Shown here piece after piece: positions 21,785 through 36,205 of a stretch of 64,000 nucleotides of DNA. The DNA is from Xanthobacteraceae bacterium 501b (GTDB taxonomy: Bacteria; Pseudomonadota; Alphaproteobacteria; Rhizobiales; Xanthobacteraceae). The translations under genes were made by a program, and so were the position numbers. Location: assembly GCA_000378025.1 (NCBI GenBank), contig KB899087.1:1488001-1552000 (forward strand), written 5' to 3'. The notes below the pieces were generated by a model. That model saw nothing but the letters and a program-made list of their open reading frames with translations. It was not told where the DNA came from and ran no database searches. Numbering within the stretch: position 1 is the stretch's first letter; every line of letters begins with the position of its first letter.

Positions 21785-23299
21785 TCAGTTCTTCACCGTC
21801 TCTTCAAGGAAGAAGCGGCCCAGCGGGTTCTGGTGGAAGTTCTCGATATTCTTGGCGGTGACGTTGATATAGGGGCTGTAATAGAGGTCGATCCAGTTGA
21901 CGTCGCCCTTGGCCAGCTTCTGCAGCGTCACATACATCGCTTCGCGCTTGGCCGGGTCGGTTTCCAGCCGGGCGGCTTCCACCAGCGCCTTCACCTCGTC
22001 ATTCTTGTAGCGGGTCATGTAGTTCATGTTGGTGTCGTGGCCGAGCACGAAGGTGGTCTTCTGGTCGACATCGAGAATGTCGTTGGTCCAGTACATCACC
22101 GAGATGTCGTAGTCGCCGTTCACCAGCATGTCCCAGCTCTGGCTGGGGTCGACCTTCTGCAGCGTCACGCCGACGCCGGCCTTGGCCAGCTGCTGCTGCA
22201 CGAGAACGGCGATCTGCTCGTCCGTCTCCTTACCGGCATTGACGACGTAGTTCAGCGTGAGGCCGGAGGCGCCGGCATCGGCCAGCATCTTCTTGGCCTT
22301 TTCCGGGTCATAGGGCCGGCGCAGATTGTCGGCATAGTGATAGAGCGCGCCCTTGGGCACATAGGAATAGGCGACCTCGCCCAGCCCGAAAGTGGCGGCC
22401 TCGACGATCGCCTGCTTGTCGATCGCCATATCAAGCGCCTCGCGCACCTCCTTCTTCGCCAGCGCGCCATGCTCATGGTTGATGAGCATGTGGTCCTCGC
22501 GGGTCGAGGGATCGCTGATGACCTTGAGGTCCGGATTGGTCTTCAGCTCGGCGACGCGGGAGAACGGCACGGTGATGGCGGCATCCACCTCGCCGGCCTG
22601 GATCTTCAGCATGCGGGTGTTGTCGTCGGGAATGACCAGCCATTCCACGCCGTCGAGGCTCACCTTGGCGGCGTCCCAGTAATTGGGGTTCTTCTTCAGG
22701 ATGATGCGGTCGCCGCGGCGCCACTCCACCAGGCTGAAGGCACCCGAGCCGACCGGCTTCTCGGCGAAGGCGTCGGCGGCGGCGCCGTCCACCAGCTTCT
22801 TCGGCAGCACCGAAGCGTTGGGCAGCGCCATCATCGACAGGAACGGCACCGACTTGCCCTTCAGCTTCACCACCAGCGTCTTGGGGTCGGTGGCGGTGGC
22901 GGTGTCGATCACCTTGAAGCTGTCGCCCCAGAGCGAGCCCTTGTCGTCGCGGATGCGGATCAGCGAGAAGGCGGCGTCCTCGGCGGTGACGGGGGCGCCA
23001 TCGGAGAACTTCGCGTCGCGCAGCTTGAAAGTGTAGGTCAGGCCGTCATCGGAAATCGTCCAGCTCTCGGCAAGGCCCGGCACCAGCTTGGTGCCGCTGG
23101 CGTCCACCCGCACCAGAACGTCGAACACGTTCGAGAACACCCAATTGTCGACATTCTGCGCCGACTTGATCGGGTCGAACGTGGTGGAATCCTCGTTGCG
23201 GGCGATGGTGAGCACGCCGGCGGCGTGGGCATAGCTGGTCGACAGCGAAAGAAGCGCGGCAAAGGCCGCGAGGCGGGATTTGCGGAAGGCGGTTTTCAC
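21785..23299 (-). CDS. Peptide-type ABC substrate-binding protein (family 5)
   Basis: A 504-residue periplasmic binding protein with a signal peptide (cut near AHA-AG). The family-5 motif TFDPIKSAQNVDNWVFSNVFDVLV is near the N-terminus, then LVPGLAESWTISDDGLTYTF. It is the last gene of the operon that begins with the proline iminopeptidase at 27668, through two permeases and a double ATPase. In the PipR-type loci of plant-associated bacteria an equivalent peptide importer is needed for the response to the plant signal, so this protein may bind a peptide-like cue. Confidence 0.88.
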   Translation of the reverse strand: MKTAFRKSRLAAFAALLSLSTSYAHAAGVLTIARNEDSTTFDPIKSAQNVDNWVFSNVFDVLVRVDASGTKLVPGLAESWTISDDGLTYTFKLRDAKFSDGAPVTAEDAAFSLIRIRDDKGSLWGDSFKVIDTATATDPKTLVVKLKGKSVPFLSMMALPNASVLPKKLVDGAAADAFAEKPVGSGAFSLVEWRRGDRIILKKNPNYWDAAKVSLDGVEWLVIPDDNTRMLKIQAGEVDAAITVPFSRVAELKTNPDLKVISDPSTREDHMLINHEHGALAKKEVREALDMAIDKQAIVEAATFGLGEVAYSYVPKGALYHYADNLRRPYDPEKAKKMLADAGASGLTLNYVVNAGKETDEQIAVLVQQQLAKAGVGVTLQKVDPSQSWDMLVNGDYDISVMYWTNDILDVDQKTTFVLGHDTNMNYMTRYKNDEVKALVEAARLETDPAKREAMYVTLQKLAKGDVNWIDLYYSPYINVTAKNIENFHQNPLGRFFLEETVKN

Positions 23300-23318: not shown

Positions 23319-25022
23319 TTAGCTGGCTAACTTCTCCACCGGCGGCGCCAGCAGGCGCCGGTCCGGATCGATGTCGGGAATGGCGGCGATGAGCGCGGCG
23401 GTGTAGGCCTCGCGCGGCCGCTCGAACACCTCGGCGCAGGGCCCCTCCTCCACGATGCGGCCGTGATGCATCACCACCACCCGCGCGCAGAGATGGCGCA
23501 CGATGGCGAGGTCGTGGGCGATGAACACCAGCGTCAGTTCCATGGTCTTCACCAGCCGCTGGAACAGCGCGACGATCTGCGCCTGGATGGTGACGTCGAG
23601 CGCGGCGACGCATTCATCGGCGACGATCAGCCGGGGATCGACCGCCAGCGCCCGGGCGATGCCGGCGCGTTGGCACTGGCCGCCGGAGAGCTGGCGCGGC
23701 CGGCGGCCGGCGAGTTCGGGGTCGAGTTCCACCAGCGCCAGCAGTTCCGCCACCCGTGCCGGAATAGCGGCCGAAGGCACCTTGCCCTGCACGCGCAGCA
23801 CCTCGGTCAACGTCTGGCCGATGGTCAGGCGCGGGTTGAGCGAGTTGAACGGGTCCTGGAACACCATGGCGGCCTGGTGCCGGATCTTCGCCAGCGCCAC
23901 CCCCGGCTGCCCCCGCAGGGTGGTGCCATCGAAGCTGATGTGCCCGTCGGAGATCGGGGTGAGGCCGAGCATCGCCCGCGCCAGCGTCGACTTTCCCGAG
24001 CCGCTCTCGCCGACAATGCCGACCGTCTCGCCGGGCCGGATCTGCAGTGACACCCCGTCCACGGCGCTGAAGCTGCGGCGGCGGCCGAACAGGCCGCCGG
24101 GGAGCGGGAATCGGATGTGAAGATCGTCGATCTCCACCAGCGGGCGTGCCGGCACGGCGGAGGAGGTCGGCAGGTTGGCCTCTTTGGCCTCATCGGCCTG
24201 ATCGTCCACCTCACTGCACTCATTGGTCACGGGCATTGAGGGGTGGCTGGCGATCAGCGCCCGCGTATAGGCATGGGCGGGCCGGGCGAGCAGCGCGCGC
24301 TTGTCGCCCGCCTCGACCACCCGCCCCTGCCGCATCACCGCGATGCGGTCGCAGGTCTGCGCGACCACGCCGAGATCATGGGTGATCAGGATGATGGAAA
24401 GGCCGCGCGCCTCCCGCAACTCCATGAGAAGACGCAGGATTTGCGCCTGGATGGTGACGTCGAGCGCGGTTGTCGGCTCGTCCGCGATGAGGATTTTCGG
24501 GTCGCAGGCCAGCGCCACCGCAATCATGGCGCGCTGGCGCATGCCGCCGGAAAACTCGTGCGGATAGGCGGCGAACTGGCGCGGCGGATCAGTGAATCCC
24601 ACCTGCCGCATCAGCGCGATCGCCTCCGCCTGCGCCGCCGCCCGATCCAGCCGACGGTGAAAGCGCAGCCCCTCGGCAATCTGGTCGCCGACCCGCATGA
24701 CAGGGTCGAGATGGCTGCTAGGGTTCTGAAATATCATGCCTATTTCGGCGCCGCGCACCTGCTGCATCTGCGCTTCGCTGAGCGCCAGCAGGTCGCGCCC
24801 GCCCATTCTCACCTCGCCCTGGGTGACGGAGATGGCGCGCGATGGCAGCAACTGCACCAGCGACCGGCACAGCAAGCTCTTGCCCGACCCGCTCTCGCCG
24901 ACAAGCCCGAGAATCTCGCCGGGCTGAAGGTCGAGCGAGACGCGGTCGAGCAGGGTGCGCGGGCCTTGTTCGCCGCGCACCCTGACGGAGAGATCGCGGA
25001 TCGACAGCAGCGGGGTGCTCAT
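23319..25022 (-). CDS. Fused double ATPase of a peptide-type ABC importer (DppD-DppF like)
   Basis: About 567 residues with two complete nucleotide-binding domains. The first has Walker [11 protein letters not shown] and signature SGGMRQRAM with [11 protein letters not shown]. The second has [15 protein letters not shown] and [14 protein letters not shown] with [10 protein letters not shown]; the usual Pro of the Walker B segment is replaced there (DECVAALD). The linker around 260-300 is acidic. The start at 25022 overlaps the stop of the upstream permease gene (ATGA). It powers the importer whose binding-protein gene follows 19 bases later. Confidence 0.88.
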
Positions 25023-25843
25023 TCGTGCACTCCCATCGCTTCGCCGAGCGCGTCGCCGATCATCGAAAAACCGAAGGCCAGCAGGACGATAGACAGGCCG
25101 GGGAACAGGGTGATCCACCAGGCCTGGGAGAGAAAGGCCTGCCCCTCCGCCACCATGATGCCCCACTCCGCCGTCGGCGGCTGGACGCCAAGGCCGAGAT
25201 AGGAGATCGCCGCCCCCGACAGCAGCACCAGCACCGAATCCGACATGCAGAACACCAGCGAGCCCGCCACCGAATTGGGCAGCAGGTGCCGGAACAGCAC
25301 GCGGGTGCGCGAAAAACCAAGGCTCACCGCCGCCACGGCGTAATCCGCATTCTTCAGAACGAGAATCTGCGCCCGGATGAGGCGCGCATAAGACACCCAG
25401 CCGACCAGCGCCATCGCGATGTAGAAGCTGGAAAGCCCCGGCCCGAGAATGGCGATAATGGAGAGCATCAGCACCAGGAAGGGGAAGGCGAGGATGATGT
25501 CGATCAGCCGCATCAGCACCGCATCAACGAGGCCACCGAAAAAGCCAGCAATCGCGCCGATCACGGTGCCGATGACCAGCGGGAAAAACACGCCAATCAC
25601 GGCCATCTGCAGGTCGACCCGGGCGCCAAAAATGATGCGCGAGAGGATGTCGCGGCCGAAATTGTCGGTGCCGAACGGGTGCGCCAGCGACGGCGGCTGG
25701 ATGCGCGCCGCGCCATCCTGGAAGATCGGGTCATAGGGAGCGATCAGCGGCGCGGCGAGAGCGGCCAGGGCAAAGCCCCCGACAATCACAAGTCCGGCGA
25801 GAAGCGTGCGGTTCATCCGCGTGGCGGAGACGGGCGCGCTCAC
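25019..25843 (-). CDS. Peptide-type ABC importer permease, DppC like
   Basis: About 274 residues from a GTG at 25843 that overlaps the upstream permease stop as GTGA; an ATG at 25816 is an alternative. It shows the DppC N-terminus (APLIAPYDPIFQDG..HPFGTDNFGRDILSR) and several membrane helices, with the EAA-type loop near AAVSLGFSRTRVLFRHLLPNS. It forms the channel with the DppB-like protein. Confidence 0.88.
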   Translation of the reverse strand: MSAPVSATRMNRTLLAGLVIVGGFALAALAAPLIAPYDPIFQDGAARIQPPSLAHPFGTDNFGRDILSRIIFGARVDLQMAVIGVFFPLVIGTVIGAIAGFFGGLVDAVLMRLIDIILAFPFLVLMLSIIAILGPGLSSFYIAMALVGWVSYARLIRAQILVLKNADYAVAAVSLGFSRTRVLFRHLLPNSVAGSLVFCMSDSVLVLLSGAAISYLGLGVQPPTAEWGIMVAEGQAFLSQAWWITLFPGLSIVLLAFGFSMIGDALGEAMGVHE

Positions 25844-26778
25844 AGCTTCACCCGTGGATCGGCGGCGACGGTGGCGATGTCGGCGAGGAAGTTCACCAGC
25901 ACGGTGGCGCAGGCGAACACCATGGCGACGCCCTGCACCACCATGTAATCGCGCGAGAAAATGGCGCGCACCAGCAATTGCCCCATGCCAGGCAGGGCGA
26001 AGATGCTCTCGATCACCACCGTGCCGCCGATCAGCCAGCCGATGTTCACCGCCAGCAGGTTGATGGTGGGCGCGATGGAATTGGGCAGCACATGGCGCCA
26101 GAACACGATGGACTCGGGCATGCCCCGCGCCCGGGCGGCGGTGGCAACGTCCGATTTCAGCCAGTCCACCATCGCCGCGCGCAGCGAGCGCAGCAGCACG
26201 GTGGACAGCGACAACGCGATGGTGAGCGCGGGCAGCGCCAGATGCGCCAGCTTGTCGCCCAGCGTCTCGCCATAGCCGGAGACGGGGAAAATCGGGAACC
26301 TCACCGCCAGCAGCATGATCAGCATCAGCCCCAACCAGAAGGGTGGAAAGCCGATGCCGAAAGTGGAGACGACGCGGATCGCGTGGTCGACCGGCCTGCC
26401 CTGGTTGCGGGCGGCGAGCGCCGCCAGCGGCACGGCGATGAGGATGGAAAGCAGCACGCTGCACAGGATGAGCGCAAAGGTCGGCTCGATGCGGGTGCCG
26501 ATCAGCCGCAGCACGTCGATCCGATAGACGATCGACATGCCCATCTCGCCATTGGCGAGATTGCGCAGGAAATACAGATATTGCAGCCACAAAGGCTCGT
26601 CGAGGCCGAATTGCGCGCGGATATTGGCGATGGCGGTCGGCGTGGCGCGCGCGCCCAGCAGGACCCGCGCCGGATCGCCGGGGATCATCCGCACCAGGAT
26701 GAAGGTGATGAGGCTGACGCCGAACACGACCGGCACGAATTGCAGCGGCCGCATCAGGATGAAGGAATAGCGGCGCAT
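25840..26778 (-). CDS. Peptide-type ABC importer permease, DppB like
   Basis: A 312-residue permease with a typical DppB start (a hydrophobic helix, then FILVRMIPGDPARVLLG) and an EAA loop in ARARGMPESIVFWRHVLPNS. Six or so membrane helices. The start at 26778 lies 2 bases after the stop of the proline iminopeptidase gene, so the peptidase and importer genes form one operon. Confidence 0.88.
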   Translation of the reverse strand: MRRYSFILMRPLQFVPVVFGVSLITFILVRMIPGDPARVLLGARATPTAIANIRAQFGLDEPLWLQYLYFLRNLANGEMGMSIVYRIDVLRLIGTRIEPTFALILCSVLLSILIAVPLAALAARNQGRPVDHAIRVVSTFGIGFPPFWLGLMLIMLLAVRFPIFPVSGYGETLGDKLAHLALPALTIALSLSTVLLRSLRAAMVDWLKSDVATAARARGMPESIVFWRHVLPNSIAPTINLLAVNIGWLIGGTVVIESIFALPGMGQLLVRAIFSRDYMVVQGVAMVFACATVLVNFLADIATVAADPRVKL

Positions 26779-26780
26779 CT

Positions 26781-27668
26781 CTATCGCGATACGCTGGCGA
26801 GGAAGTCGAGCAGAGGCGGGTAATAGCCGGCTGGGTTCTCGTAGAACGGCATGTGGCTGGCATTGGCGACGACATTGATCCGCGCCTGCGGCAGAGCGTG
26901 CTTCATCTTCATGGCGCAGGCCGGGGTCAGTTCGTCGCGCTCGCCCACCACGATCAGCGTCGGCACGGTGATGCGAGGCAGATCCGGGATGCGGTTCCAG
27001 TCCTTCAGATTGCCGGTGTAGAGAAACTCGTTCGGCCCCTGCATGGTGCCATAGGGGCCCATGTTCCAGTCGGCCAGCGAGCGCTGTACCGGCGCCGGCC
27101 ATTCCGGCAGGCGGCAGACATGGCGGTAGTTCAGCAGCGTGATGGCGGCCTGGTATTCGGGATGGTCGAAGCTGCCGGCCGCCTCGTGCTTCTGCATCAT
27201 TGCCACCGTCTCCGGCCCGAGCGCGGCGCGCAGCTTCTCCAACTCACTCACCAGATGCGGCATGTCGGCCACCGTGTCGGCGAGGATCAGGCTTTTCAGC
27301 GCCTGCGGGTAGGCCAGCGCGTAGTCGATGGCGAGCCACCCGCCCCAGCTATGGCCGAGCAGATGCACCTTTCCGAGGCCAAGCGCGGCGCGCACGGTCT
27401 CGGTCTCTTCGACATAGCGCGCGATCGTCCACAGCGCAGGGTCTGTCGGCCGGTCGGCGGCGCCGGTGCCGAGCTGGTCGAACGCCACCACCCGGTAGCC
27501 CTGATCGATCAGGCAGGAATGCGCCTCGCGCAGATAGTCGCAGGCCAGCCCCGGCCCGCCATTGAGGAGAAAGACGGTTTCCGCGCCGGTGCCGAATGAA
27601 TAGGCCACCACCCGGTGCTCACCGACCCTCACCTCATGCCGCTCATGCGGCTCAATCTCCCGCCACAT
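26781..27668 (-). CDS. Proline iminopeptidase-family alpha/beta hydrolase (first copy)
   Basis: A 295-residue serine peptidase of the prolyl aminopeptidase group. The oxyanion motif is LLNGGPGLACDYL, the nucleophile elbow GHSWGGW, and the catalytic His is in NASHMPFYENP. It would remove N-terminal Pro or similar residues from small peptides. It is the first gene of the peptide-importer operon and is divergent from the LuxR solo gene. A 20-base box lies about 69 bases upstream of its start and is repeated before the second copy at 28650. This pairing of iminopeptidase and LuxR solo is the hallmark of OryR/PsoR/PipR loci. Confidence 0.88.
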   Translation of the reverse strand: MWREIEPHERHEVRVGEHRVVAYSFGTGAETVFLLNGGPGLACDYLREAHSCLIDQGYRVVAFDQLGTGAADRPTDPALWTIARYVEETETVRAALGLGKVHLLGHSWGGWLAIDYALAYPQALKSLILADTVADMPHLVSELEKLRAALGPETVAMMQKHEAAGSFDHPEYQAAITLLNYRHVCRLPEWPAPVQRSLADWNMGPYGTMQGPNEFLYTGNLKDWNRIPDLPRITVPTLIVVGERDELTPACAMKMKHALPQARINVVANASHMPFYENPAGYYPPLLDFLASVSR

Positions 27669-27733: not shown

Positions 27734-27753
27734 CAGCTATCAGAAGTGATAGG
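27734..27753. promoter_or_regulatory. lux-box-like palindrome between iminopeptidase and LuxR solo genes
   Basis: A 16-base palindrome CTATCA-GAAG-TGATAG (27737-27752) within a 20-base block. The same 20 bases occur inverted at 28568-28587. The centre is about 76 bases before the iminopeptidase start and 41 before the luxR start. It is very likely the binding site of the LuxR solo. Confidence 0.8.
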
Positions 27754-27784
27754 TTTGCCCCTAGAGGCGGGGGACGCTCGGGCG

Positions 27785-28546
27785 ATGGGTGCCGATATCG
27801 GAATGATCGAACAGCGGCTGGACGCGGCCACGACGCTGGGCGCGCAGGTCGATCTCCTGTTTGAAGCCATGCACGGTTTCGGCTTCGACGCGCTGATCTA
27901 TGACTACACCCCGGCGCGCTTTGACCTCGATGGCGCACAGATGATGCCCTCCGTGCTGGAGCTGCGCAATGTCGACGAATCCATGCGCGACTACTGGGTC
28001 GGCCAGGGTTATTTCCGCCTCGACCCGGTGCAGAAGGTGGCGCTCGGCACCACACGGCCTTTCGTCTGGAACTACGACGCACGCGCCGAGACTCTGATCC
28101 GGGCCTTCATGAACGAGGACAGCGCCCCGGTGGCCGACTTCCTCGCCGCGCGCGGCATGAGCGCCGGCGTCACCGTGCCGGTGCACATGCCCGGCGGCGA
28201 CTACGCCACCATCACCGGCATACGCTGCGGCGATGGGCGTTTTGCCGAGCGCGAGGCCAAGCACTGCCTGGGCGAATTCGGCCTGCTGGCGCACCTGTTC
28301 CAGCACGCGGCGGCCGGCGCGCTGCGGGAGGACCGCCGGCTCGACGGTCTTCCCCGCCTGACCGCCCGTGAGCGCGAATGCCTGCGCCATGCTGCCGAGG
28401 GACTATCCGCGAAGGAGATCTCGCGCGCGCTCGGCCGCTCCGTCCCCACCGTGGTGATGCATCTCAACGCCGCCATGCGCAAATTGCAGGCGAAGAACCG
28501 CACACAGGCGGCGGTGCGTGCGGCGCGCCTGCGCCTGCTCGATTGA
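27785..28546 (+). CDS. LuxR-family solo regulator of the plant-responsive OryR/PipR type
   Basis: About 253 residues from the ATG at 27785, which places the palindromic box upstream rather than inside the gene. Residues about 20-170 are an autoinducer-binding domain, and 185-250 a GerE/LuxR helix-turn-helix ([25 protein letters not shown]). Aligning on the conserved DPV and FVW motifs, the position of TraR Trp57 is Met and that of Tyr61 is Trp (MRDYW), while Asp70, Pro71 and Trp85 are kept. Those two changes define the OryR/PsoR/XccR/PipR subfamily, which answers plant compounds rather than acyl-homoserine lactones. No luxI gene is present nearby. Confidence 0.88.
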
Positions 28547-28567
28547 CCCTGCGCCCTCCCCTTCCCG

Positions 28568-28587
28568 CCTATCACTTCTGATAGCTG
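28568..28587. promoter_or_regulatory. Second, inverted copy of the lux-box-like palindrome
   Basis: CTATCA-CTTC-TGATAG at 28569-28584, the exact reverse complement of the box at 27737-27752, with identity extending over 20 bases. It lies 66 bases before the start of the second iminopeptidase gene, almost the same distance as at the first. Confidence 0.8.
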
Positions 28588-28649
28588 CCGCACGCTTCGC
28601 CGACTGCCTATTTTCCTCGCCATCGACACGGGCGGCAGGGAGATCAGGC

Positions 28650-29552
28650 ATGAACGCAGTGGGCAGCGTGGAGGGGTTTCTGTCCTTCCGAGGATACCAA
28701 ACCTGGTACCGCGTGACCGGCGCCCTCGACAGCCCGCGCCTGCCGCTTGTTGTGGCGCATGGCGGCCCCGGCTGCACCCACGACTATGTCGATTCCTTCA
28801 AGGATATCGCCGCCCTCGATGGCCGCGCCGTCATCCATTACGACCAGCTCGGCAATGGCAAGTCGACCCACCTGCCCGAGAAGGGTCCTGACTTTTGGAC
28901 CGTGGAGCTGTTCCTCGCCGAGCTCGACGCGCTGCTGGCGCATCTGGGCATCGCGCAGCGCTACGCCTTTCTCGGCCAGTCCTGGGGCGGCATGCTGGGG
29001 GCCGAGCACGCGGTGCGCCGGCCGCAGGGGCTGAAAGCGCTCGTCATCGCCAATTCCCCCGCCAACATGCACACCTGGGTCGCCGAGGCGAACCGCCTGC
29101 GCCGCGAACTTCCCGCCGAGGTGCAGGCGACGCTGCTCGCCCACGAGGCGGCCGGCACGCTCACCCATCCCGATTACATCAAGGCCTCGATGGCGTTCTA
29201 CGACCGCCATGTGTGCCGGGTCACGCCCTGGCCGGCGGAGGTCGCCCGCACCTTCGCGGCAATAGATGCGGACAACACGGTTTATCGCCACATGAACGGG
29301 CCGACTGAGTTCCACGTCATCGGCACGATGAAGGACTGGACCATCGAGAGCCGGCTGCCGCAGATCGCCGCGCCGACCCTGCTGATCTCAGGCGCCCATG
29401 ACGAGGCCACGCCCGAGGTGGTGCGTCCCTATCGCGAGAAGGTACCCGATATACGCTGGGTGTTGTTTCCCGAGTCCAGCCACATGCCGCATGTCGAGGA
29501 AAAGGAGGCCTGCCTGACGGTGGTCTCCGACTTCCTCCAGCAGCACGATTAA
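28650..29552 (+). CDS. Proline iminopeptidase-family alpha/beta hydrolase (second copy)
   Basis: A 300-residue paralogue of the gene at 26781. The oxyanion motif is [13 protein letters not shown], the nucleophile elbow GQSWGGM (Gln replacing the usual His), the acid probably in [11 protein letters not shown], and the His in [12 protein letters not shown]. An AGGGAG-like ribosome site precedes the ATG at 28650. The lux-box-like copy upstream marks it as part of the LuxR regulon. The two enzymes differ enough to suggest different substrate peptides or amides. Confidence 0.87.
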
Positions 29553-29657
29553 AGCGAGCCGGCCAACCCGGCACACTTGAGGGCATAGCCTCCCGGTCGC
29601 TGCGCCGGAACCGCGGGTCGCTGCCGCTACTTGTCCCCGGCCAAAGGGGACACGTAC

Positions 29658-30788
29658 ATGCTCGACATCGCGGCCAACCGCACCAGGGGACATGAATCGC
29701 TGCTTGGCGATCTGCGCCGCCTTGCCCGCCACACGGCGGTGCTGGACGAAGACGGCAGCTTTCCCTCGCAGGACATCGCACGCCTCGCCGCCATCGGCGC
29801 CCTCACCGCTCCTTTCGGCACGAAGGAGGCGGCCGGCATCGCCATCGGCGCGCCGGACGAACTGTCGGAGGTGCTGCGCCTCATCGGCCATGGCGGCCTG
29901 CCGCTCGGGCGACTTTACGAAGGCCACGTCAATGCCGCGGCGCTGATTATCCGCTACGGCACCCGCGCGCAAATCCTTCGCGCCCGAAGCCGGGCGGCCG
30001 AGGGGGCTCTGTTCGGCGTCTGGAACACCGAGGGCGCGGATGGGGTGCGGCTGGTGCGCGAGGGCGACGCACACCGTCTTGTCGGCAGCAAGACCTTTGC
30101 CTCCGGAGCCGGCCATATCGCATGCCCGCTGATTACCGCCCGTGACGTGGATGGCGCATGGCGGATGGTGCTGCCCCGGCTGGACGACGCCGAGCGCGCC
30201 GACCTGTCGGACTGGCGGGCCCATGGCATGCGCGCCTCGGCCACCGGCAGCTTCCGCTTCACCGGGCTGGCCGTGCCGGATGAGGATCTTCTCGGCGGCG
30301 CCGGTGACTATCACCGGCAGCCGCATTTCTCTGCCGGCGCCTGGCGCTTCTGCGCCGTCCAGCTCGGCGGCATTGAGCGGCTGATCGACGAGGCAAAGGA
30401 CTTCCTGCATGCCAACGGGCGGCACGAGGACCCGCATCAGCTCGCGCGCATGGGCGAGGCGCTGATTGCTGCCGAAACCGCCCGGCTCTGGGTCGGGCAG
30501 GCCGCCCGCCTGGCCGAGGCGACGGAGGTGGCCGATACGCCCGAAGCGGCGGAGCGCGCCGTCGCTTATGTGAACCTGGCTCGTTCGGCGGTGGAGCGCA
30601 GCGGGCTGGAGACGCTGGAGCGGGTGCAGCGTTCAGTCGGACTCGCCGGGTTTCTGCGCACCCACCCGCTTGAGCGCCTGTGCCGGGATCTTGCCACCTA
30701 TCTGCGCCAGCCGGCGCCAGACCGCGCCTTGTGCGCTGGCGCCGCCCATGCGTTCCGCGACGAGTGGACCGGAGACCTCTGGCGATGA
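29658..30788 (+). CDS. Acyl-CoA dehydrogenase-family protein
   Basis: A 376-residue flavoprotein of the acyl-CoA dehydrogenase superfamily. Visible are the N-terminal helical domain, a middle beta domain (GVWNTEGADGVRLVREGDAHRL; GMRASATGSFRFTGLAVPDED) and a C-terminal helical bundle. The catalytic Glu of classical enzymes cannot be placed with confidence. The start at 29658 has AAAGGGGA seven bases upstream. It opens a tightly overlapping set with a PIG-L deacetylase and a NodS-like methyltransferase, so it probably acts on an acyl or amino-sugar conjugate rather than in beta-oxidation. Confidence 0.78.
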   Translation: MLDIAANRTRGHESLLGDLRRLARHTAVLDEDGSFPSQDIARLAAIGALTAPFGTKEAAGIAIGAPDELSEVLRLIGHGGLPLGRLYEGHVNAAALIIRYGTRAQILRARSRAAEGALFGVWNTEGADGVRLVREGDAHRLVGSKTFASGAGHIACPLITARDVDGAWRMVLPRLDDAERADLSDWRAHGMRASATGSFRFTGLAVPDEDLLGGAGDYHRQPHFSAGAWRFCAVQLGGIERLIDEAKDFLHANGRHEDPHQLARMGEALIAAETARLWVGQAARLAEATEVADTPEAAERAVAYVNLARSAVERSGLETLERVQRSVGLAGFLRTHPLERLCRDLATYLRQPAPDRALCAGAAHAFRDEWTGDLWR

Positions 30789-31522
30789 GCCCGACCCTCG
30801 GCGATGCGCTGGAGGCCATGGCCGGCTTCCCCGAAATGGAACCGAGCGATTTCGTCCGGCGCGGCCTCCTCGTCATCGCGCCCCATCCCGACGATGAAAG
30901 CCTGGGCTGCGGCGGCCTCATTTCCGACTGCCGCGCGGCCGGCCTGCCGGTGTCCATCCTCATCATCAGCGATGGCGCCGGCTCGCATCCGGGTTCGGTA
31001 CTGTTTCCGCCCCCGGTTCTTGCCAAGCTGCGCCAGCAGGAGGCGATCGAGGCAGCGGCGGCTCTCAGTGTCGGGCCATCGCATGTGCATTTCGCCGGAC
31101 TGCCGGATCGCCATGTGCCGATGACGGGGCGCGAGGCGGAACAGGCCTGCGACCGTATCGCCACCCTCGCCGCCGCTGCGGACGTGGTCGCCGTCACTTG
31201 GCGGCACGACCCGCATGGCGACCACAAGGCCAGCTTCGCGCTGGCGCGCGCGGCGGCGCGGCGCGTACCCGGCGCGACGCTTTGGGAATACCCGATCTGG
31301 GGCCTTACCCTGCCGCCGCAATTGCCGCTGCCGGGCGCGCGGCCGCACGGCGTGAGAGTCCGTGTCGCCAATCACCTGCCGGCGAAGCGGCGCGCCATCG
31401 CCGCCCATGCCTCACAGACCACGGCGCTCATCGTCGACGATCCCAAGGGCTTCCGGCTCACGCCGGATATGCTGGCGCGTTTCGACACGGATTGGGAAAC
31501 CTTCATGGAGTGCCCGCTATGA
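30785..31522 (+). CDS. PIG-L family (LmbE-like) deacetylase
   Basis: A 245-residue zinc-dependent N-deacetylase. The N-terminal metal motif is APHPDDESLGCGG (residues about 32-44), and the second metal site is in WRHDPHGDHKASF. The family removes acetyl groups from GlcNAc-containing substrates. It overlaps the acyl-CoA dehydrogenase-like gene and the methyltransferase gene by 4 bases each, so the three proteins are made together. Product probably a small glycolipid or glycoconjugate (inference). Confidence 0.85.
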   Translation: MSPTLGDALEAMAGFPEMEPSDFVRRGLLVIAPHPDDESLGCGGLISDCRAAGLPVSILIISDGAGSHPGSVLFPPPVLAKLRQQEAIEAAAALSVGPSHVHFAGLPDRHVPMTGREAEQACDRIATLAAAADVVAVTWRHDPHGDHKASFALARAAARRVPGATLWEYPIWGLTLPPQLPLPGARPHGVRVRVANHLPAKRRAIAAHASQTTALIVDDPKGFRLTPDMLARFDTDWETFMECPL

Positions 31523-32094
31523 ACCCTTCCCTGCCCACTACCTATTTCGACACCCTCTATGAACGCTCGCCCGACCCCTGGTCGTTCGAGACCAGCCCCT
31601 ACGAGCAGGCGAAATATACCGCGACGCTGTCCGCTCTGCCCCGGCCACGCTATGCGCGGGCGCTGGAAATCGGCTGTTCGATCGGCGTGCTGACCGAGCG
31701 ACTGGCATCCCGTTGCGATGAGCTGATCGCGATGGAGCCGGCAGCCATCGCATTGGGGCGGGCGCGCCAGCGCTGTCGAGGCCTCAGCCAGATCGCCTTT
31801 CTGGAAGGCAGCGCTCCGGCCACCTGGCCAACGGGCACGTTCGACCTCATCCTGCTGTCGGAGGTTGTTTACTACCTTGACCCAACCGACGTGTCCCGGC
31901 TCGCGGCGCGCGTGACGGATTCGCTCCGTCCCGGCGCCCATGTCGAGCTCGTCCATTGGGTGCGGGAGACGGATTATCCGCTCTCAGGCGACGACGCTGC
32001 CGAGCTCTTCATCGCGGCCACTGCCGGAACCTTGGCGCCGATAACTCAGCAGCGCACCGAGGATTATCGCCTGGACCTGCTTGTCGTCGCCTGA
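31519..32094 (+). CDS. NodS-like SAM-dependent methyltransferase
   Basis: A 191-residue methyltransferase. It has the NodS-type N-terminus (YFDTLYERSPDPWSFETSPYE) and SAM-binding motif ALEIGCSIGVLTERLA, then LILLSEVVYYL. Rhizobial NodS N-methylates the deacetylated amino sugar of Nod factors, which fits the deacetylase next to it. The last 111 bases overlap, in antisense, the end of the convergent glycosyltransferase gene. Confidence 0.85.
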   Translation: MNPSLPTTYFDTLYERSPDPWSFETSPYEQAKYTATLSALPRPRYARALEIGCSIGVLTERLASRCDELIAMEPAAIALGRARQRCRGLSQIAFLEGSAPATWPTGTFDLILLSEVVYYLDPTDVSRLAARVTDSLRPGAHVELVHWVRETDYPLSGDDAAELFIAATAGTLAPITQQRTEDYRLDLLVVA

Positions 32095-33276
32095 GGCGCT
32101 ATCGAGTGCCCGCAGCAGCTGGCGGGCGGCGACGAGATGGCGCTCCATTTGCGAGGGCCGTAACGGGCGCCGCGCGAGATGAGGGCTGTGAGCCTCCACT
32201 CTCGCCCACGCCTCGCCGAATTGAAGGCGCGCCGGGCTCTCCAGCGTGCCGGCCTGCAAGGCCAGTCGGTGCTCCCACGCCGGCGCGTCGAGACCTTCGG
32301 CGACGGCCCGCCGCAGGCGAAGCCGTAGCACCATGCGGCGCAGGGCGACGGGAAGCGCCTCCAGTCTGTCGTCGCCGGGCATATCGTGGTGTTCGAGCCG
32401 CTGGCGCAGCGTCGCGGCGCACCCGCCGCTCGCTCGCCCCTCCAGCCGCGCGGAGGTGGTGACAAGGATGTCGGGGTCGTGCCGGATCGGGATGTCATGG
32501 CGCGCCAACGCCGCCGCCAGCGCCTGGTCCTCGCCGACCTCCACCTCCGGCTGGCCGCCAATTCGGCGATAGGCGGCAAGGCTCACGGCGAAGCTGGCGC
32601 CGGACGCGGTCCAGTGATTCGGCCAGGGATCGTGCGGCAGCGGGTCGAGCCGTCCCGCCAGCGCCAGCAGCGCCGCCTCATAAGCGGCCTCAATCCGGCG
32701 ACGCCTCCGCAGCGCCGATGGCAGCGCCGATGGCAGCGCCGCCGCTTCGACGGGATCGAGCTCGAACCGGCCAGCCACCGCGCCGCACCCGGCCGAAAGC
32801 CCGGCGAGATTGCGCGCCAGCCAGTCCGGCGCCACCACCGTATCGGCATCCGTGGTCAGCAATGCCCCCTGCGCCCCGCCGCGCTCGACCCAGGCGCCGG
32901 CAAGGTCGAGCGCCAGCCCGCGTGCAAAGCCGGCATTGGCATGGGTGGGCGGCACATCGAGGCTAAGGACCCGATGCGGCAGTCCGGCAGCGGCAAGCAC
33001 GTTCCGCGCCCGAGGCACCGTATGGTCACGGCAATTATTCGCCAGAACCAGCACCCCGAAGGCGCCGAAATCACCCTCCGCCCGGCGCTGTCCGGCGAGC
33101 GCGGCAAGGCAGCGCTCGATGCGCCCCTCCTCGTCGCGGGCAGGCACCGCGACCACCACGCGCGGCGCAAAGCGCGAGAAGCCGGCCTGTCGTTCGAGCA
33201 GGCGGGCGAGACCGAGACGGAGCGGCGAGATGGATGGGGACACGGAAGACCTCTGGAGCACAGCGCGAACGCTCAT
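31984..33276 (-). CDS. Family 2 glycosyltransferase
   Basis: A 430-residue GT2 enzyme. The nucleotide-sugar fold begins VVVAVPARDEEGRIERCLAAL, the metal-binding DxD is in LLTTDADTVVAPDW, and the acceptor region shows GEDQALAAALARHD. The C-terminal 150 residues are Arg/Leu-rich and less family-like. It faces the deacetylase-methyltransferase pair, with a 111-base tail-to-tail overlap, and probably supplies the sugar they modify. Confidence 0.82.
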   Translation of the reverse strand: MSVRAVLQRSSVSPSISPLRLGLARLLERQAGFSRFAPRVVVAVPARDEEGRIERCLAALAGQRRAEGDFGAFGVLVLANNCRDHTVPRARNVLAAAGLPHRVLSLDVPPTHANAGFARGLALDLAGAWVERGGAQGALLTTDADTVVAPDWLARNLAGLSAGCGAVAGRFELDPVEAAALPSALPSALRRRRRIEAAYEAALLALAGRLDPLPHDPWPNHWTASGASFAVSLAAYRRIGGQPEVEVGEDQALAAALARHDIPIRHDPDILVTTSARLEGRASGGCAATLRQRLEHHDMPGDDRLEALPVALRRMVLRLRLRRAVAEGLDAPAWEHRLALQAGTLESPARLQFGEAWARVEAHSPHLARRPLRPSQMERHLVAARQLLRALDSASGDDKQVQAIILGALLSYRRQGSGSGRDEELGSVVA

Positions 33277-33332: not shown

Positions 33333-34151
33333 TCAGGGGCGCTCACCTCGGGCGAGACGGCCATTGATGGCGGCGAGCACCGGCAGCAGGTCGGCGACGC
33401 CATCGATCACGTAATGCGCCCCGGCGGACGCCAGCTTGCCCACCGCCTGCGCCCGGCGCGCGGCGAAGTCGTGCGCCGAGAGGGCGTCGGTGTCGGCCCG
33501 CGACAGGCCGAAGACATTGCCGGTGACGGCGACGCCGACGGTCCAGGCCCCGCAATTGAGCCCCTCGCTGATACCCACTTCGGTATCGTCGATCTTGACC
33601 ACGGCCCACGGCGGATAGATTTCAAGCTCGGTCAGCACCTTCCACATCAGGAAGGGCGTCGGACGCCCGTCCGGAACGTCGCCGGTGCAGGCCATGGCAT
33701 CGGCGGAAAAGCCCTGCGCGGCGGCGATCGGGGTGATCCGCGCCATGATCTCGCGGGTATAGCCGGTGGTGCTGCCGATCTTCAGCCCCTCGGCCCGCAC
33801 GGCGGCTGCCGTCTCCGCCGCGCCGGGAATAAGATCGGCGTAGCTTGCCGCCACGGCGATGTTCTTCGGCACGAACACAGCGTAGACCGCATCGATGTCC
33901 GCCTCGGTGGGGGCGTGGCCATGCACGCGCTGCCATTCGCCTGTGATGCGCGGCATGGCAAGCAGTGCCGCCACATGCGGGCGCTTGGCCATGCCCATCG
34001 GCACACGCGCCTCGTCAATGCTGATCGCGACATTGAACTCGGCGAAGGCATCGACAAAGGCGCCCATCGGGGCGAGCGACCCGAAATCGACGACAGTGCC
34101 GGCCCAGTCGAAGACGACGGCCTTTAGGCGAGACAGTGACATGGCGTTCAT
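33333..34151 (-). CDS. phnX: Phosphonoacetaldehyde hydrolase
   Basis: A 272-residue HAD-family enzyme. The nucleophile Asp about 15 is in VVFDWAGTVVDFGS, the Schiff-base Lys about 56 in MGMAKRPHVAALL, and Asp ligands are in KIDDTEVGISEG. It cleaves phosphonoacetaldehyde to acetaldehyde and phosphate in 2-aminoethylphosphonate use. No transaminase (phnW) is next to it here. The start at 34151 is chosen (34142 is an alternative); the longer upstream reading has unrelated Arg-rich sequence. Confidence 0.88.
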   Translation of the reverse strand: MNAMSLSRLKAVVFDWAGTVVDFGSLAPMGAFVDAFAEFNVAISIDEARVPMGMAKRPHVAALLAMPRITGEWQRVHGHAPTEADIDAVYAVFVPKNIAVAASYADLIPGAAETAAAVRAEGLKIGSTTGYTREIMARITPIAAAQGFSADAMACTGDVPDGRPTPFLMWKVLTELEIYPPWAVVKIDDTEVGISEGLNCGAWTVGVAVTGNVFGLSRADTDALSAHDFAARRAQAVGKLASAGAHYVIDGVADLLPVLAAINGRLARGERP

Positions 34152-34326
34152 CCGGTTGAAGGCATGTGCTCCGGCGCCCGACGACCCGGGCCGAACGCAC
34201 GGCGCTAGGCTATCCCGCTGTTTCATGTCACGTGCAAGGGCTAGGCGGCCTTGCCTGACTGTCCTTTTTCGCCAGCGCCTCACCGTCGCCGCCGGCGCCG
34301 GGAAACGATGCCGGCGGCCGGCACAG

Positions 34327-35019
34327 CTAACGCGGCTTGCGCAATATGGGGCAGCCATAGTCCGCTCCACCCCGGCCGCCCGCGTCCCGTGAGCAGCGCA
34401 TCGGGTTGTGCGCCGCCTTGGGGCAGCTGCTGACCATGCGAACCAGCTCGACGGGCGACTGCACGCCCATCTTGTGCAGCAGATTGATGCGATGCCCCTC
34501 GACCGCCTTGACGCTGAGATTCAACGCATGCGCCGCCACCTTGTTGGGCTGGCCGCGCAGCATGCATTGCAGCACCGATTGCTCGCGCTCGGTCAGCGTC
34601 GCCAGCTTGGCGCGAATGTCGTCGCAGATCAGCTCGCAGGCATAGTTCTGCGAATCCCAGCGTATCCAGTGCTGCACCAGCTGGAGGAGGACGGTATCGT
34701 TGACCGGCTTCTCCAGAAAGTCGCGCGCCCCCGCATGCAGCGCCCGCACCGCCATCACCACATCGGCATGGCCGCTGATCATCAGCACCGGCATGGTCCA
34801 GCCGATCCGCCCCACCTGCTCCAACACCTCGATACCGTTGATGCCAGGCAGGCGAACGTCGAGCAACAGGCAGGACGGCCGGCTGATATGGGTGAGTTCC
34901 AGAAAGGGCTGGGGATGCTGGAACATCTCGGTCTTCAGGCCTACAGACCGAAACAGCGCTGCGAGAGAAGCATTTAGACCGGGATCGTCATCGACAATGT
35001 AGACCGCCGGCTCACGCAT
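34327..35019 (-). CDS. FixJ-family response regulator
   Basis: About 230 residues from the ATG at 35019, which has GAGG six bases upstream; 35031 is an alternative. Receiver domain: YIVDDDP, phospho-acceptor Asp about 54 in CLLLDVRLPG, Lys in DFLEKPVND. Output: LuxR-type helix-turn-helix (LTEREQSVLQCMLRGQPNKVAAHALNLS). The C-terminal tail of about 35 residues is Cys/Arg/Gly-rich and unusual. It overlaps the end of the kinase gene and acts with it. The kinase gene is divergent from the gas-vesicle operon, a possible target. Confidence 0.88.
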   Translation of the reverse strand: MREPAVYIVDDDPGLNASLAALFRSVGLKTEMFQHPQPFLELTHISRPSCLLLDVRLPGINGIEVLEQVGRIGWTMPVLMISGHADVVMAVRALHAGARDFLEKPVNDTVLLQLVQHWIRWDSQNYACELICDDIRAKLATLTEREQSVLQCMLRGQPNKVAAHALNLSVKAVEGHRINLLHKMGVQSPVELVRMVSSCPKAAHNPMRCSRDAGGRGGADYGCPILRKPR

Positions 35020-36205
35020 CGTGCGCCTCATCTTCGCCGCGGCAAGGCAGGCGAATGGTGAAACGACTGCCTTCGCCCGACTCCGCCGCCGCTTCGATGC
35101 TGCCGCCCAGCCGCTGGGCCAGCGTGCGGGCGATGGACAGGCCGAGCCCGGAGCCGTTCACCTTGGTGGTGATGAAGGGCTCGAATATCCGCTCGCCAAG
35201 CTCTGCCGGCAGGCCGATTCCCGTGTCGCGCACATCGACCCGAACCTTCGAGGCGCCCTCGCGCGTGGTGCGAATGTCGAGATGGCGCCGACCGACGGGC
35301 TGCGGCCCCATGGCCTGGATGGCGTTCGTCACCAGGTTGAGGATGATCTGCTGGAGAATGATCTGGTCGCCCTGCACCGGCGGCAGCTCTGGGGCCAGTT
35401 GCAGCCGGAAATCGATGGATTGCTCGCGCATAGCCGGCTCGGCAAATCCAAGAACCACCTTCACCGCAGCGTTCAGGCAGGCATCGGTCGAGGGCTGCGG
35501 TGCGCCCTTGAGAAAGGAGCGCAGGCTCTTGACCACATCGCCGGCCCGGGCGGCCTCGGCGCCGATATTGATCAGCACCTCGTCCAGTTCGCCGGCCCGC
35601 ACGGCCCGCCCGGTGAGCGAGCGGCGGGCGGCACCGGCGAAATTGACGATGGCGCCCAGCGGCTGATTGATCTCATGCGCCAGCGCCATGGCCATCTCGC
35701 CCAGCGCCGCCTGACGGTCAGCGCGCAGAAGCTCTTCCACCAGCACCTCGGTGGAGCGCTGGGTGGCCCGCCACGACGTCTCGTCGATGAAGGACAGCGC
35801 CCGCAACGCCCCCGCGCCCTCCCCCTGAATGGCGAAACGTCGGACCCGCAGATCCTGAGGCAGCTGACCGGCGGCGGTCCGTACCAGATCGATGTCCTCG
35901 ACCTGCTCCGCCGCCTCCGAGAGCAGCGCCTCGATATCGCTGGGGGCGAAAGCCAGGCGGGCGAGAACCCCCTGCACGGGACGTCCGACGAGCTGGGCGC
36001 GCGTCAACCCGAACAGCCTGGAGAATGCGGTATTGGCCGACCGTATCGTGCCGCGCCTGAAGCTGATCACGCCCTCGGGGAAATTGGCCAGCACGGCATC
36101 GACAGACTCCCCCAAAGGCAGCTTCCTGGAGCGCGCCCTGGCGACAGATTTCGACGGATGTACCGGAGACTTTGGCTCAGCATCAAATATTATCGGCGAT
36201 TTCAT
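35012..36205 (-). CDS. FixL/TtrS-like PAS sensor histidine kinase
   Basis: A 397-residue soluble kinase with one PAS domain (about 32-140: VLANFPEGVISFRRGTIRSANTAFSRLFG) and no membrane helices. The HisKA phospho-acceptor is His about 177 in ALAHEINQPLGAIVNF, followed by HATPase motifs NLVTNAIQAMG, DTGIGLP and GSGLGLSI. The heme-binding His typical of oxygen-sensing FixL is not evident, so the cue is unknown. It is divergent from gvpA with a 533-base gap. Confidence 0.86.
   Translation of the reverse strand: MKSPIIFDAEPKSPVHPSKSVARARSRKLPLGESVDAVLANFPEGVISFRRGTIRSANTAFSRLFGLTRAQLVGRPVQGVLARLAFAPSDIEALLSEAAEQVEDIDLVRTAAGQLPQDLRVRRFAIQGEGAGALRALSFIDETSWRATQRSTEVLVEELLRADRQAALGEMAMALAHEINQPLGAIVNFAGAARRSLTGRAVRAGELDEVLINIGAEAARAGDVVKSLRSFLKGAPQPSTDACLNAAVKVVLGFAEPAMREQSIDFRLQLAPELPPVQGDQIILQQIILNLVTNAIQAMGPQPVGRRHLDIRTTREGASKVRVDVRDTGIGLPAELGERIFEPFITTKVNGSGLGLSIARTLAQRLGGSIEAAAESGEGSRFTIRLPCRGEDEAHDA

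Follow-up and report, generated by a model that had tools for sequence, protein, structure and literature searches.

A LuxR solo between two peptidase genes

The 64,000-nucleotide stretch of DNA analysed here (the window) encodes a LuxR solo flanked by two proline iminopeptidase-family hydrolases, with ABC importer genes behind pip1 and one copy of an inverted-repeat box ahead of each peptidase gene (Table 1).

Table 1. Genes and candidate regulatory features of the locus, in window coordinates.
Feature	Position	Strand	Basis or remark
Importer substrate-binding protein, family 5, AapF counterpart	21785..23299	-	PF00496
Importer ATPase, two ABC domains in a single protein	23319..25022	-	PF00005, two stretches; oligo_HPY
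Importer permease 2	25019..25816	-	PF00528 and OppC_N
Importer permease 1	25840..26778	-	PF00528
pip1, proline iminopeptidase-family hydrolase, probable AapA counterpart, first in importer operon	26781..27668	-	TIGR01250, 265.8 bits; synteny
CTG immediately 3' of box 1, pip1 side	27734..27736	-	candidate -35 position
Box 1 core, CTATCACTTCTGATAG read toward pip1	27737..27752	-	shared 20-mer 27734-27753; pip1 ATG 76.5 from centre
luxR, LuxR solo, 253 aa, OryR/PipR/NesR subfamily	27785..28546	+	Autoind_bind and GerE
Box 2 core, CTATCACTTCTGATAG read toward pip2	28569..28584	+	shared 20-mer 28568-28587; pip2 ATG 73.5 from centre
CTG immediately 3' of box 2, pip2 side	28585..28587	+	candidate -35 position
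-10-like TATTTT, +25 to +30 from box 2 end	28609..28614	+	
pip2, proline iminopeptidase-family hydrolase, probable PipA counterpart	28650..29552	+	TIGR01250, 261.6 bits

The initial annotation had called both luxR neighbours iminopeptidases, a family assignment that holds in so far as both exceed the TIGR01250 cut-off, while by synteny pip1 is likelier an AapA-type (alanine) aminopeptidase; because the gene order equals that described around PipR in Pseudomonas sp. GM79, pip1 is probably AapA-like and pip2 PipA-like. The genes from pip1 onwards are arranged head to tail on the reverse strand, separated by 2, 23 and 19 bases and in one case overlapping by 4, a spacing from which pip1 and the four importer genes are predicted to form one transcript. 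The importer binding protein matches AapF (PDB 7kz8/7kz9) at E 4.2e-236 and is 72% identical to this crystallised protein (346 of 482 aligned residues).

Beyond pip2, positions 29631-33276 of the window hold a protein that matches acyl-CoA dehydrogenase weakly, a PIG-L deacetylase-family protein and two ORFs, one methyltransferase-like (named by reading only) and the other glycosyltransferase-like, and positions 33333-36205 hold a HAD-family hydrolase, then a response regulator, then a PAS histidine kinase, the ORFs of the last two overlapping by 20 bases. We take the hydrolase to resemble phosphonoacetaldehyde hydrolase and the response regulator to be FixJ-like.

The LuxR protein has an autoinducer-binding domain (PF03472, 90.8 bits) and a helix-turn-helix domain (PF00196, 57 bits), and has the residues M67, W71, D80, P81, W95 and G128. 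In the alignment with QscR, M67 and W71 fall in the columns of its conserved W and Y, equivalent to W57M and Y61W in TraR numbering, and are invariant in all 12 rows of both the close and the diverse alignment, its own row included. One or both of these substitutions, with the other pocket residues kept, have been described as the mark of plant-associated LuxR solos (PMC3821632). No luxI is adjacent: the single Autoind_synth match in the genome lies 3.55 Mb further along the same contig, or approximately 1.5 Mb away in the other direction if the contig is circular. The locus combines autoinducer-binding and helix-turn-helix domains, the residue substitutions, the lack of a neighbouring luxI, an adjacent pip gene and a lux-type inverted repeat before pip with a dipeptide-type ABC importer and AapF-like binding protein in the peptidase operon, and these sequence features place it among the LuxR-solo clusters of the PipR/OryR/NesR type, carried here by a relative of Ancylobacter. 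Among named LuxR records, those of Ancylobacter species come closest (up to 98%). Of the literature matches listed on this genus with LuxR, iminopeptidase or quorum sensing (15 of 3,166), none mentioned Ancylobacter, which is weak evidence of absence.

The two boxes share an exact 20-mer, consisting of CAG, CTATCAGAAGTGATAG and G, in which positions 27734-27753 are the reverse complement of positions 28568-28587, confirming the earlier report of identical inverted copies before pip1 and pip2; the copies diverge at the next base at both ends. The 16-mer CTATCAGAAGTGATAG is read on the forward strand at 27737-27752 and on the reverse strand at 28569-28584. It had been described as a palindrome with two further identical bases on either side: the 6-base arms (CTATCA/TGATAG) do pair and the 20 bases are exact, but the GAAG spacer is non-palindromic and the flanking identity is split three and one (CAG/G) around the core. 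The reported distances to the two start codons agree with the coordinates, from which the first base of the ATG is 69 positions from the box edge for pip1 and 66 for pip2.

The earlier judgement that such identity exceeds chance also stands, as shuffled windows gave a mean of 0.08 matches to the 16-mer and only one of 100 shuffles contained two. No third copy of the core with up to three mismatches occurs in the 64-kb window, and across the whole genome (5,108,628 bases in two contigs) the core is present at up to two mismatches only as these two copies. The initial annotation had called for this genome scan and named many unrelated copies as grounds for rejection; the scan gave 10 further matches at three mismatches, fewer than the 16 of a reversed-pattern control and thus at chance level, and on the same counts a repeat element was rejected. 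A strong sigma-70 promoter at the boxes was likewise rejected, a consensus scan giving no promoter-like site, and the pip1 flank of the window itself has, by eye, only a poor -10 match.

Distribution and conservation of the box

Full-length LuxR homologues of at least 59% identity were present in 12 of 61 relatives, the next best reaching 33% with all candidates scored. Eleven of these 12 belong to the 30 genomes examined from the same genus; the LuxR is absent at this threshold from the other 19, and the system is therefore dispensable. The degenerate 19-mer CTATNACTTNTNATAGCTG was found in all 12 LuxR genomes and in none of the other 49, with no control matches. Among 397 genomes of the order it occurred in 17, comprising every one of the 16 whose LuxR is close (E <= 9e-119) and one of the 381 others, in which (genome G288) the match overlaps the end of an unrelated-looking ORF named by reading as outer-membrane-protein-like; by our own arithmetic, approximately one match to 16 fixed bases is expected by chance across the DNA of the 397 genomes. 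Eight further order genomes encode a more distant LuxR (E 9.1e-90 to 8.7e-54) without the exact 19-mer pattern. This division into 16 close and 8 distant genomes was set after the scores had been seen, and the undivided figure for order genomes with a LuxR at E <= 1e-40 is 16 of 24 with the pattern and 8 of 24 without it, from a scoring of at most six candidates per genome in which a LuxR could be missed. The corresponding Fisher values of 5.7e-13 (61 genomes) and 1.3e-27 (397 genomes) overstate significance, as the genomes are related and the samples overlap. The box tracks the adjacent LuxR across genomes. A larger regulon was considered and rejected, the G288 match being the only one outside luxR loci among the 397 genomes with an exact pattern that would miss weaker sites.

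The conserved footprint was derived from 80 loci of named relatives, kept from 148 confirmed loci and all used, which had been sampled by luxR via two helix-turn-helix peptide patterns, a choice that favours a conserved DNA reader. In this set pip2 lies downstream of luxR in 80/80 loci and pip1 upstream in 79/80, and CTAT-N8-ATAG stands ahead of both operons in 80/80, while CTATNACTTNTNATAG is present in the pip1 box of all 80 and in the pip2 box of 64. Taking the best match to the 19-mer per segment, 0-3 mismatches were found in the 160 segments versus 4-11 in 3,200 shuffles. The conservation continues on the pip side of the box, with CTG in 157 of 160 cases (77/80 for pip1, the other three having CTA, and 80/80 for pip2), TATNNT at +25 after the pip2 box in 76/80 and, on the pip1 side, A26 in 70/80 and T30 in 68/80. 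Weighted information without gaps is 1.92 bits per box column for pip1 and 1.73 for pip2, and 0.73-0.96 bits per column over the first 40 bases on the pip side (0.85-0.96 for pip1), falling on the far side to 0.20 for the luxR-facing flank of the pip1 box and 0.34 for the pip2 box.

Since the pip-side flank is conserved and the far side is not, each box points at its pip operon. Judged from the alignment, the element is asymmetric, with CTG at the place of a -35 element and a -10-like hexamer at a fixed distance, and its putative promoter elements would give it the layout of a LuxR class II activated promoter. In the published description of that class the lux box is centred near -42.5 from the transcription start (PMC4471428); the centre of box 2 would fall at about -44.5, given the +25 spacing, if six bases part the TATNNT hexamer from the start.

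The cores at own-genus loci are identical to each other in 7 of 11 genomes and differ in 4, and many rhizobia have CTATCACTTCTTATAG as the pip1 box and CTATAACTTGTGATAG or a near variant as the pip2 box. As the identity of the cores varies among relatives, exact identity is thus a lineage trait and the dyad a family trait. In many rhizobia (L039-L118) the two half-sites of a box are CTATCA and CTATAA, and their polarity at one promoter is the opposite of that at the other.

A more diverged set comprised the eight distant order loci and seven further loci from a sample of the phylum, in which 12 of 398 genomes gave a match and five of the 12 had been found already. Their boxes were first read by eye and later counted by pattern: of 25 segments next to luxR, 19 contained a single CTA-N10-TAG, versus 171 of 5,000 shuffled segments, a count that omits five luxR-upstream segments of L157-L161 where there is no pip gene. 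The pattern is missing from the other 6 of the 25 segments, including both sides of L175. This last locus (G747:C15, LuxR at 1483-2241, E 1.9e-92, same subfamily) has no pip-like gene within 1.5 kb on each side, an apparent exception to the rule that such regulators always neighbour pip.

In Ancylobacter lacus (L051/L164) pip1 has gone from the locus, concomitant with the retention of the importer and of box 1 before the first permease gene, which suggests that box 1 serves the importer operon. The other full-length pip1 homologue of this species (70%, G006:C38) has a different neighbourhood and adjoins a regulator gene, presumably DeoR-like. Relocation of pip1 together with its box was rejected, as this homologue in its different neighbourhood has no box (best match six mismatches).

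Regulatory interpretation

The two boxes are, with high probability, operators of the LuxR encoded between them, whose liganded dimer would activate the pip1-importer operon and pip2 in an import-sensing feedback circuit. The five-gene operon headed by pip1 would import a small peptide-like or ethanolamine-derived compound, which itself or as a product would bind LuxR inside the cell. The liganded dimer would then bind each CTAT-N8-ATAG just 5' of a weak -35 element (CTG) and, with the box approximately 24 bases ahead of the -10-like hexamer, would recruit RNA polymerase. Both the pip1-importer operon and pip2 would be switched on, extra importer providing positive feedback, and the two peptidases may exert negative feedback by degrading the signal, as in the published model of PipR from GM79. 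The observed basis of this circuit comprises the sites, their genome uniqueness, conservation and orientation, LuxR co-occurrence, gene content and subfamily residues, from which we infer direct binding, activation rather than repression, the promoter elements, a ligand and the plant origin of that ligand.

The initial annotation had proposed a small regulon of pip1 with the importer and of pip2 under LuxR, and this fits a site that tracks LuxR, precedes both operons in all 80 footprint loci and sits in a PipR-like layout as in GM79; as a sequence-level prediction it is well supported by the comparative tests. Several observations count against the circuit. The aapA reporter of GM79, the counterpart of the pip1 promoter, is described as responding weakly, by approximately 1.5-fold with peptone (PMC4981722), and in the published account plant extract did not induce pip through the Kosakonia subfamily members PsrR and PsaR2. 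The poor -10 match of the pip1 flank, the negative sigma-70 scan, the LuxR loci that lack the box patterns and the dispensability of the system weigh on the same side.

The signal could instead be a non-plant compound, such as a microbial peptide or an ethanolamine derivative, which would make 'plant signalling' the wrong name for it in this genus. The LuxR is present in six named Ancylobacter species, the GM79 system is described as also responding to peptone and Ser-His-Ser (PMC4981722), and HEHEAA is reported not to be bound by a protein closely homologous to that of its transporter, all of which agree with this theory; the subfamily residues and synteny, however, are those of plant-responsive members, and a non-plant ligand is a serious possibility that we do not favour. 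Of similar standing is the tentative extension of the proposed circuit in which the box is a directional promoter module, a lux-type dyad joined to a -35-like CTG with constant spacing to the -10, and the whole direct LuxR regulon in these genomes consists of two promoters, forming a closed import-sense-degrade circuit that was kept across alphaproteobacteria including Ancylobacter and whose signal may be a compound that also occurs outside plants.

Control of luxR itself from box 1, by autoactivation or repression and either in addition to or instead of the pip operons, is unlikely. Autoregulation is common among LuxR systems, and box 1 lies in the divergent pip1-luxR gap with its centre 40.5 bases ahead of the luxR ATG. 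A possible site before psrR has been noted in Kosakonia, and the ungapped conservation test could miss luxR-side elements at variable distance. Against this stand the low information of the luxR-facing flank relative to the pip1 side and the CTG facing pip1, and the best match in the opposite orientation, CTG included, has 4-8 mismatches in 160/160 segments. The earlier suggestion that the regulon possibly includes luxR itself is accordingly unsupported, its flank not being conserved.

It is very improbable that the box belongs to a different regulator, such as an AHL-type LuxR encoded with luxI elsewhere. The genome does encode a luxI-type synthase, together with a second LuxR that has an autoinducer-binding domain (G000:C1:5068619-5069580), at approximately 5.07 Mb near the end of the main contig, but the stretches around them match the core with no fewer than six mismatches, and box presence tracks the LuxR of the window over both the 61 and the 397 genomes. 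Least probable of all is action of the inverted repeat as RNA (a terminator or hairpin) or as a mobile or intergenic repeat: the 6-base arms could pair around a 4-base loop and 22 bases separate the luxR stop from the box 2 core, but folding z-scores of -0.41 and -1.11 are no better than shuffles, no terminator-like site was found at the boxes, the genome has no further copy at up to two mismatches and the orientation toward pip is fixed in relatives.

Relation to known LuxR-solo systems

The closest described counterpart is the PipR/PipA/AapA-AapF system of GM79, in which a LuxR solo likewise has a peptidase gene on either side and a peptide ABC importer next to these, aapA (alanine aminopeptidase) heading the importer genes and pipR lying upstream of pipA (proline iminopeptidase) (PMC4981722). 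Sites ahead of both peptidase genes are described there as centred -71.5 and -91.5 from the ATGs, the -71.5 site of pipA being close to the box centres here at 76.5 and 73.5 (PMC4981722). According to the same source, mutation of the pipA site abolished PipR-dependent transcription, the importer mutant was unresponsive and the peptidase mutants over-responded (PMC4981722). Compared with the published description of GM79, the present locus differs in having both ATPase domains in one gene and two identical 16-mer cores, and its LuxR has W57M and Y61W whereas that of GM79 keeps W57 (PMC4981722).

In Sinorhizobium meliloti 4H41 (L089) a LuxR 60% identical to that of the window has the same pip1-luxR-pip2 layout and both boxes, which unlike those here are not identical, 3 of their 16 bases being different; from its species, layout and subfamily this LuxR would be NesR. 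The OryR, XccR, XagR and XocR regulators of Xanthomonas are described as sharing an adjacent pip gene, an upstream lux-type inverted repeat ('pip box') and W57/Y61 substitutions (PMC3821632, PMC4981722), the likeness of the pip box, OryR site included, being drawn from published description alone.

Few plant-responsive LuxR solos have a known ligand, and a regulator whose direct regulon apparently has two promoters, with identical operator cores, provides a clean system for a ligand search. Relatives without the locus in the same genus help to test the coupling of import, sensing and peptidase degradation, and the conserved box is a simple genome marker for one alphaproteobacterial family branch. 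Set beside these known systems, the locus is an ordinary but unusually clean example of an already known kind of circuit.
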